Origin: Hyphococcus flavus
Lineage (GTDB): Bacteria > Pseudomonadota > Alphaproteobacteria > Caulobacterales > Parvularculaceae
Direction: 5' to 3'
Assembly (NCBI RefSeq): GCF_028748065.1
Contig: NZ_CP118166.1
Span: 2,185,501 to 2,249,500 of the forward strand
Length of the DNA stretch: 64,000 nt
Below, in pieces: positions 17,331 to 20,305 of this stretch. Below the pieces are notes generated by a model, which was given only the letters and a program-made list of their open reading frames with translations, was not told where the DNA came from and searched no databases. The first letter of the stretch is position 1, and every line of letters begins with the position of its first letter. A program made the translations under genes and the position numbers.

Positions 17331-18779
17331 ATGACGAATAAAGACCAATATTCAAAAATCGATCCGCCTAAAATCAAGGTGCGGCTGCCCTTCGGCGCCG
17401 GCGTCGTGCATTTTGTCGGCATCGGCGGGATTGGCATGAGCGGCATCGCCGATGTGATGCGCAATCTCGGCTATGATGTGCGCGGGTCCGATGTGGCCGA
17501 CGGGCCGAACGTGCAGCGTTTACGCGACAAGGGCGTGCCCATCGTCATCGGCCATAAACCGGAAAATGTCGACGGCGCCGATGCGGTGATCATCTCAACG
17601 GCGATCAAGCGCGACAATCCTGAGGTTGCTGCTGCGCGCGCGCGCCACATTCCCGTGGTGAAACGCGCCGACATGCTCGCGGAGCTGATGCGCCTCAAAT
17701 GGACCGTTTCCGTCGCGGGCACCCACGGGAAAACGACGACGACAACCATGGTCGCGGCGCTGCTCGACGAAGCCAATCTCGACCCGACAGTGATTAATGG
17801 CGGCGTCATCAACGCTTACGGCGCCAATGCGCGCATCGGTGAGGGCGACTGGATGGTGGTCGAGGCGGACGAAAGCGACGGCACGTTCATCCGCTTGCCG
17901 ACAACGGTTGCGATCGTCACCAATATCGACCCTGAGCATCTCGATCACTGGGGCGGATTTGAAAACCTGCGCAACGCGTTTGACATCTTTATCGAGAACA
18001 CGCCGTTTTACGGTTTCGGCGTCGTCTGTCTCGATCATCCGGAGGTGCAGGCGCTGGTGGGCCGCGTCACCGACCGGCGGCTTATTACATACGGCGTCAA
18101 TCCGCAGGCGGATGTCCGCGCGGCGAATATCCGGTTTGAGGACGGGACTTCCGTTTACGACATTATTTTCCGCGAGCGCGGGACCGAGATCGGGCGCATC
18201 GATAACGTCAAACTGCCGATGCCGGGCGCACATAATGTGTTGAACTCACTACCCGCCGCCATTGTCGCCAAGCGACTCGGCGCCAGCAACGAACAGATCA
18301 AATCGGGCTTTGCGAAATTCGCCGGCGTCAAGCGGCGGTTCTCGCCAGCGGGCGAGTGGAAAGGCGTCACCATCATCGACGATTACGGCCATCACCCGGC
18401 GGAGATCGCGGCGGTGCTGCGCGCCGCGCGCAACATTGCGTCAGGCAAGGTCATCGCGGTGGTGCAGCCGCACCGATACTCGCGTTTGCAGAACCTGTTC
18501 GATGAATTCTGCGCCTGCCTCAATGAAGCGGACGTGGCGTTGATCACCGATGTCTATGCGGCCGGCGAAACTCCACTTGAAGGCTATGACAGAGATAGTC
18601 TCGTCGCAGGCCTTGAAAGCCATGGCCACCGCGATGCGAGCGCGCTGAAAAGTTTCGACGATCTGCCGCGCGTGATCGCCGAAACGGCGGAGCCGGGCGA
18701 TTATGTTATTTGCCTCGGCGCCGGCGACATCACCAAACATGCGAATGCGCTGGCGGGTGCGCTGGAGAAGATTGGGTAA
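17331..18779 (+). CDS. murC: UDP-MurNAc:L-alanine ligase
   Basis: 482 residues, cytosolic Mur ligase adding the first amino acid of the stem peptide. N-terminal [16 protein letters not shown] binds the UDP-sugar, the ATP loop is [11 protein letters not shown] (about 125), and [23 protein letters not shown] and [12 protein letters not shown] follow. [11 protein letters not shown] and LGAGDIT are in the C-terminal domain. All key motifs are intact. An unrelated exported protein starts 3 bases after its stop. Confidence 0.96.
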
Positions 18780-18782
18780 AGT

Positions 18783-19220
18783 ATGTTCAGATCACTTTTC
18801 GCCACAATTTCAGTGCTCTTTCTTTTCACATCGCAAGCCATCGCATGCTCGTGCGCCCAGTTTGAAAGTATTGAAGAACATGTTGGCATATCTGATGTTA
18901 TTTTTATCGGCGCTGCAGAGAAAACAGGTAGAACGTTAAGCGGTTTATTTGGTTCTGAATACAATCGCAGCACACGATTTTCAGTAGCTGAAATGCTTAA
19001 GGGCGAGAAAGACGAAAAACTATTTGTGACGCATTATTTGAGTCTAGACTATGGAGCAAATTGTGGACTTACCTTCGAAAAGGGCGTCGAATATTTGGTT
19101 TTTGCCTTCCGAAGACAGAATGGATCTCTAACGACGCACAGTTGCATGCGTACGCGTAAGAAAAGTGAGTTCCCTGACGGCTTGTTGGAAGAATACCGCG
19201 AAGTGATTAACCCAGGTTAA
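18783..19220 (+). CDS. exported protein with TIMP/netrin-like (NTR) features inside the dcw cluster
   Basis: 145 residues. A signal peptide (hydrophobic core about 4-17, ending FTSQAIA) is followed by a mature N-terminus CSCAQFESIEEH, then ISDVIFIGAAEKT, a CGLTFEKGVEYLVFAF segment and a final THSCMRT. A mature N-terminal C-x-C, an early GxA-type strand and two later cysteines match the NTR/TIMP-like fold seen in bacterial secreted proteins; role there is generally unknown. It lies between murC and murB, 3 bases after murC, where the cluster normally has no gene. It looks more A+T-rich than its neighbours, suggesting later insertion. It is likely cotranscribed. Link to cell division is unproven. 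Confidence 0.72.
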   Translation: MFRSLFATISVLFLFTSQAIACSCAQFESIEEHVGISDVIFIGAAEKTGRTLSGLFGSEYNRSTRFSVAEMLKGEKDEKLFVTHYLSLDYGANCGLTFEKGVEYLVFAFRRQNGSLTTHSCMRTRKKSEFPDGLLEEYREVINPG

Positions 19221-19277
19221 TGGTTTTACCTGTCGCCATGCATCCGAATAGTGAAGTTAGGCTGGTTTCCCCGCTCA

Positions 19278-19365
19278 CCCCGGCGAAAGCCGGGGGCCAG
19301 TTAAAACAAAATGACGGGCTTTGCCCGGCTTTATACTTATGCTGGATCCCGGCTTTCGCCGGGAT
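19278..19365. repeat. three-hairpin intergenic repeat between the NTR-like gene and murB
   Basis: Three stem-loops lie in a row: CCCCGGC-GAAA-GCCGGGG (19278-19295, GNRA-type loop), CGGGC-TTT-GCCCG (19315-19327) and ATCCCGGC-TTTC-GCCGGGAT (19346-19365). The last, with flanking CTGG and GACC, resembles the dispersed palindromic repeat seen in many alphaproteobacterial genomes. murB starts 20 bases later. No T run follows the stems, so termination is not indicated. Confidence 0.7.
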
Positions 19366-19384
19366 GACCGGGTGGAGGGATTAG

Positions 19385-20305
19385 GTGAAAAAAATCACCG
19401 TCCAATACCTCCCCACTGTCCGTGGCAAGTATATCGAGAACGCGGATCTCTCTGCGCTCACTTGGTTTCGCGTGGGCGGGCTGGCGGATGTGTTGTTCAT
19501 GCCTGCCGATGAGCAAGACGTGTCGCATTTCCTGAAAGAAACGCCGGAAGAAATTCCGGTTTACGTTATGGGCGTCGGCTCGAACCTGCTGGTGCGCGAT
19601 GGCGGCGTGCGCGGTGTTGTTATCCGTTTCGGTTCACCGTTTCGCCAAGTACATGTGGAGGGGATGCGCGTCACCGCCGGTGCGGGATGTATAGACGCGC
19701 AGGTCGCAAAACGCGCGGCGCAGGAAGGCGTGGCGGGGCTCGAATTCTTTCGCGGCGTGCCGGGCACGATCGGCGGCGCGATAAAAATGAACGCCGGCGC
19801 TTATGGCGGCGAGGTAAAAGACGTGCTTGTCGAGGCAGTCGCCTATGACCGCAAGGGCGAGCGGCGGGTTCTTTCGAACGCCGATCTCGGGTTTTCCTAT
19901 CGTCATTCATCAGCGCCTGATGATCTAATCTTCATCAGCGCAACTTTTGAAGGCACGCCTGACGAGCCCGACGCCATCATCGCCCGCATGGACAAGATCA
20001 GCGCCGAGCGTGAAGCCTCGCAGCCGATCCGCGAGCGAACGGGCGGGTCGACCTTCGCCAATCCCGACGTGGAAAAATCAGGCGGCCGCAAAGCCTGGCA
20101 GCTCATCGATGAAATCGGCGGACGCGGGCGCATCGTCGGCGACGCGCAGGTTTCTGAGCGCCACTGCAATTTCATGATCAACCGCGGCGACGCGACAGCG
20201 GCGGATTTGGAAGAGTTAATAGAGTCTTTACGTAAGGATGTCTTAACAAAAACAGGCGTTGAGTTGCGCTGGGAAATCAAGCGCGTAGGTGAGGCATCGC
20301 GATGA
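19385..20305 (+). CDS. murB: UDP-N-acetylenolpyruvoylglucosamine reductase
   Basis: 306 residues, FAD-dependent cytosolic enzyme that reduces UDP-GlcNAc-enolpyruvate to UDP-MurNAc. The FAD domain has [27 protein letters not shown] and [20 protein letters not shown]; the C-terminal part has the proton-donor serine in [10 protein letters not shown] and a [20 protein letters not shown] region followed by [13 protein letters not shown]. It is a type I MurB without the extra substrate loop. The start is a GTG at 19385 with GGAGGG about 6 bases upstream. The stop overlaps the ddl start by 4 bases. Confidence 0.95.

Follow-up and report, generated by a model that had tools for sequence, protein, structure and literature searches.

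A TIMP N-domain-like protein encoded between murC and murB in Hyphococcus flavus, a candidate exported metallopeptidase inhibitor

Introduction

TIMPs are the animal regulators of matrix metalloproteinases, and NTR folds have non-inhibitory roles as well, among them those in agrin, complement and PCOLCE. In animal TIMPs, the zinc of the protease is chelated by the amino group and the carbonyl group of the N-terminal Cys (PMC10033314). In bacteria, the nearest described precedent is Tim of Listeria monocytogenes, an exported and structurally TIMP-like lipoprotein that acts on the envelope, carries an LTAC lipobox, has a phage or mobile-element origin, and is encoded with a paired metzincin gene (PMC8235301). 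Tim is cleaved by its metzincin partner Mtz and the cell wall is altered, with the Mtz-Tim pair changing cell morphology and the sensitivity to wall-targeting agents (PMC8235301). The authors of that study (2021) found no earlier literature record of bacterial TIMP-like structures (PMC8235301), and in our search of the open-access literature on bacterial TIMPs it was the one relevant paper. Another small exported inhibitor of metzincins, the Pseudomonas alkaline protease inhibitor, reportedly engages its target in a TIMP-like manner (PMC8235301).

Here, we describe a gene for a TIMP-like protein that lies among the peptidoglycan genes of the marine bacterium Hyphococcus flavus, and weigh what its product may do and how it came to occupy this position. 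The window referred to below is the whole stretch of 64,000 nucleotides of H. flavus DNA that was analysed.

Results

The ORF for the TIMP N-domain-like protein (18783..19220, +; 145 aa), recognised by the reading frame itself, by homologues at the same junction and by fold evidence, begins with ATG 3 nt downstream of the stop codon of murC (17331..18779, +; 482 aa; an ORF named by sequence recognition) and ends 164 nt before the start of the murB ORF (19385..20305, +). Its GC content is 0.429 and its GC3 0.404, as compared with 0.56-0.60 and 0.58-0.74 in 13 other dcw genes, and none of the 438-nt stretches sampled in the window fell below it. Both the lowered G+C content (0.43 against 0.56-0.60) and the 3-base gap after murC (stop at 18779, start at 18783) had been claimed in a preliminary description of the locus, and both were borne out.

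A signal peptide is predicted at residues 1-21 (18783..18845, +; MFRSLFATISVLFLFTSQAIA, then CSC), and the motif at its end, AIA, is of the SPase I AxA type and not a lipobox, the residue at position -3 being alanine and not Leu, as judged by motif only; tim homologues in other Firmicutes are likewise without a lipobox (PMC8235301). In almost every family member, the mature Cys is directly preceded by AxA, so that cleavage by SPase I would free an N-terminal Cys. The protein is therefore predicted to be exported and to begin, as secreted TIMPs do, with Cys-x-Cys (AIA-CSC), a start that is conserved in the family. This mature N-terminus, Cys22-Ser23-Cys24 (18846..18854, +), corresponds to Cys1-Ser/Thr2-Cys3 of TIMPs in the profile and structure alignments, which run from TIMP residue 1. 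The Cys94-Gly95 motif (19062..19067, +) aligns with the CG of TIMP-2 and is the counterpart of TIMP Cys70-Gly71, while Cys121 (19143..19145, +), aligned with a Cys of TIMP-2, is by TIMP analogy the probable disulfide partner of Cys24. Among 21 family members, C94 is invariant, and G95 and C121 are each conserved in at least 90%. The protein has exactly four cysteines, C22, C24, C94 and C121, in agreement with the signal peptide, CSC start and two later cysteines noted beforehand, and the pairs C22-C94 and C24-C121 are putative disulfides by analogy. The conserved cysteines may also be purely structural.

When used alone as a query, the window protein matched no Pfam family, and did not reach the PF00965 cut-off; the PDB likewise gave no match, and NCBIfam gave none that was convincing. 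A family profile was built from 21 relatives and searched against 177,635 PDB sequences at E up to 10, and its only matches were TIMP-2 (1.8e-7 and 5e-7) and TIMP-3 (9e-4); in these, profile position 22, where CSC begins, falls on TIMP residue 1, the mature Cys1. Pfam TIMP was matched by 6 of the 21 relatives (E up to 1), at best with 7.5e-6. An AlphaFold2 model computed from a 3-sequence alignment (pLDDT 77, pTM 0.70) has an OB-type NTR fold, and its top PDB matches were N-TIMPs; in Foldseek, TIMP-2, TIMP-1 and the NTR domain of PCOLCE led, with TIMP-3 among the remaining matches, and the comparison with N-TIMP-3 gave Z 13.3 at 2.7 A over 115 residues.

The protein thus resembles the N-domain of animal TIMP-1/2/3 (PF00965) in its predicted fold, in the mature Cys-(Ser/Thr)-Cys start, and in a Cys-Gly placed in the reactive-ridge loop, and residues 22-145 of the model superpose on TIMP residues 1-118. 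It differs from animal TIMPs in having a single domain without the C-terminal TIMP domain, four cysteines instead of twelve, and about 15-18% identity; the missing domain and the four cysteines rule out TIMP proper as its identity. The Pseudomonas alkaline protease inhibitor is likewise a small exported bacterial protein, and its fold is unrelated to that of the window protein. The profile relationship and the modelled structure together support the assignment, at the level of homology and fold, to an exported single-domain homologue of the TIMP N-domain within the N-TIMP/NTR fold superfamily. The NTR/TIMP fold first suggested for this gene was thereby upheld by the family profile against PDB, the Pfam TIMP matches of 6 of 21 relatives, and the model; a mismatch with NTR, named beforehand as grounds for abandoning the idea, did not occur.

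A TIMP-like gene is found between murC and murB in 4 of 52 readable Parvularculaceae junctions, in two genera: G000 (the window genome), G003 and G016 belong to one genus and G029 to another. The other 48 junctions lack it; they are short, or palindromic repeats occupy them, and in genus g8 the occupant is a small ORF. Occurrence in relatives, which the preliminary description had proposed to check, was thus present, yet limited to these four junctions, and an absence from all relatives was looked for and not observed. The gene is tightly coupled to the mur genes, as had been supposed, with the 3-nt spacing in the window, a TIMP start that overlaps murC in G029 (ATGA), and TIMP stops that overlap the murB start in G003 and G016 (TAATG). 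A C-terminal YR motif is common to all four proteins. Across the order, related genes were found in 39 of 299 genomes, a minority, and a conserved-peptide search of 85k genomes returned the G003 and G016 loci alone. A plasmid origin of the gene was considered and set aside, its support being one weak Rhodococcus match.

Several further observations were made around these loci. In the G003 metagenome assembly (L061:2400-2640), the TIMP gene and the murB start are followed by two Ns and then by the murC end and murB without the TIMP gene, and this joint possibly reflects a misassembly or, alternatively, the co-existence of strains that have and lack the gene. A 23S rRNA intervening-sequence-type protein (PF05635, E ~1e-36) is encoded directly after murB in two of the four carriers, G016 and G029 (L003:179-535, -, and L059:5306-5671, +). 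G054 has three tandem TIMP-like ORFs (L060:4580-5881), of which the third, as read, is without the Cys-x-Cys start, and G008 encodes a long pentapeptide-repeat protein with an N-terminal TIMP-like domain (L040:1-1902, -). The source genome itself has a second TIMP-like gene (L062:3164-3553, -; C1 ~2009678), which groups closely with those of its genus relatives (end branches 0.17 and 0.06), in contrast to the murC-murB TIMPs; genes related to this second copy in G005 and G026 (L007, L006) adjoin rhodanese-like and glyoxalase-like ORFs, named by eye.

As for a partner protease, no metallopeptidase was found among the 20 neighbours of homologues that were scanned (~1.5 kb flanks), these being unrelated or unmatched, and the scanned neighbours outside the mur locus were unrelated to each other. 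Metzincin-type Pfam matches showed no pattern of co-occurrence with the TIMP gene in the family: among the carriers, G000 has Reprolysin_4, in a protein encoded near C1:941844, G003 has M10, G029 has both and G016 none, and many non-carriers have such matches. Unlike Listeria Tim, the window protein is of the SPase I type and lies in the dcw cluster, where its neighbours are murC and murB and no metzincin gene is adjacent. This lack of a protease linkage among the neighbours and in the co-occurrence, together with the resemblance of the model to agrin NtA, PCOLCE, meteorin and complement NTR domains, would suit an NTR-fold protein that binds a ligand, a surface or a polymer without inhibiting any protease. 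However, the profile matches TIMP-2 and TIMP-3 only, and in register at Cys1, TIMPs come first by structure, and AxA before the Cys is retained family-wide; we therefore regard such a binding role as unlikely.

Downstream of the gene lies a dispersed repeat of the REPIN type (19270..19370, +), recognised by its folding and its genome copies and composed of two inverted REP arms and a central hairpin; the folding of 19215-19390 gave z = -4.9. The REP-type core (CCCGGCTTTCGCCGGG) has 20 copies in the genome, as against 0 for the reversed control, and several of them are inverted pairs ~70 bp apart. Since the core is dispersed in the genome and occurs in inverted pairs, the three-hairpin repeat reported earlier is present and folds but is an element of the REPIN class rather than a part of the TIMP-like gene, resembling REP/REPIN elements in its inverted, genome-dispersed REP-like arms. 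A palindromic repeat also lies 3′ of the TIMP gene in G029, so that in both G000 and G029 TIMP and murB have a repeat between them. Many relatives without the TIMP gene have the same gap filled by other palindromic repeats. At the murC-murB junctions L011-L032, at least three palindromic repeat families are inserted in different species, and the small ORF in the gap of genus g8 (L107-L109) has ~60-90 codons and hydrophobic stretches.

The four TIMPs are strongly diverged. All six pairs show 33-39% identity and dN of 0.67-0.80 regardless of species distance, over pairs in which the dN of MurC is 0.02-0.21; across the three other carriers the flanking MurC and MurB are 76-97% and 71-93% identical. 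In the closest pair, G000 and G003, MurC and MurB are 97% and 92% identical (dN 0.02 and 0.05; dS 0.67 and 0.76), whereas the TIMPs are 35% identical in the codon alignment, with a dN of 0.76, a value on a par with the dS of the flanking genes (0.67-0.76). In every pair, pN (0.44-0.49) is below pS (0.76-0.91), which indicates that the ORF is constrained, and with homologous ORFs occupying this junction in three further genomes it is more than a chance reading frame. A non-functional or decaying ORF, which the low GC, weak conservation and sporadic presence might suggest, is very improbable in view of this constraint in all pairs, the retention of the four cysteines and core motifs, and the intact ORF in four genomes.

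The divergence would be compatible with an exchange of versions, with insertions that occurred independently, or with very rapid diversification. In trees built on ~120 columns, a single clade for the four TIMPs appeared in 0% of bootstrap trees, while it was not rejected (p-AU 0.47), and the G016 and G029 TIMPs paired at 95/90. It is conceivable, if somewhat unlikely, that a permissive murC-murB gap took up unrelated items repeatedly and that the recurrence of TIMPs there is partly chance: the different palindromic repeats in the gap of relatives, the small ORF of g8, and the lack of support for one clade speak for such an origin, but the non-rejection of a single clade, the G016-G029 pairing, the C-terminal YR motif and in-operon placement common to all four, and the presence of TIMP-like genes otherwise in a minority of genomes speak against it.

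Discussion

Based on these findings, we tentatively propose, at somewhat less than an even chance, that the gene encodes an exported zinc-metallopeptidase inhibitor and is an accessory gene placed in a steadily transcribed slot, with both the inhibition and the target inferred. SPase I would cut after AIA, so that the mature protein would begin with Cys-Ser-Cys. The C22-C94 and C24-C121 disulfides would form as in TIMPs, and a metallopeptidase located either in the periplasm or extracellularly could have its active-site zinc chelated by the N-terminal Cys, through the free alpha-amino group and the carbonyl group of that residue. The TIMP gene is probably co-transcribed and translationally coupled with murC and murB, from which the cassette would gain steady expression while remaining accessory and taking no part in peptidoglycan assembly. 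Because the versions diverge, whether by being swapped or by diversifying, the target is suggested to be no part of the conserved division machinery, and foreign or accessory metallopeptidases are examples of what it could be.

The location could instead reflect a role in the envelope, with the protein inhibiting a periplasmic peptidoglycan-remodelling zinc peptidase of the M23 or M15 type. The position conserved in two genera, the start and stop overlaps, and the effects of Listeria Mtz-Tim on morphology and wall-agent sensitivity (PMC8235301) would accord with such a regulator; however, the gene is missing at 48 of 52 readable junctions, the versions of near relatives differ as much as those of different genera, unlike what a partner of a core enzyme would show, and homologues elsewhere adjoin unrelated genes, which makes this role distinctly improbable. 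Nothing was found to support the action on envelope enzymes put forward in the preliminary description, nor is there support for the protein taking part directly in division or in peptidoglycan assembly, while the alternative offered there, a passenger gene, is better fitted by the sporadic presence, the AT-rich composition, and the divergence unrelated to species distance.

The inhibitor proposed above might, in a stronger form that we hold to be rather unlikely, be a hypervariable TIMP-type protein for which the dcw operon is an expression slot. Under this reading, its versions would be exchanged, or would diverge through conflict with foreign metallopeptidases, and strains of one species would perhaps differ in whether they have the gene.

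In conclusion, this work reports a bacterial family that keeps both the Cys-x-Cys start and the TIMP fold, which raises the question of the target that it would inhibit. The highly conserved operon around the gene, together with a divergence that matches the flanking synonymous rate, would make conflict-driven turnover testable in this family.
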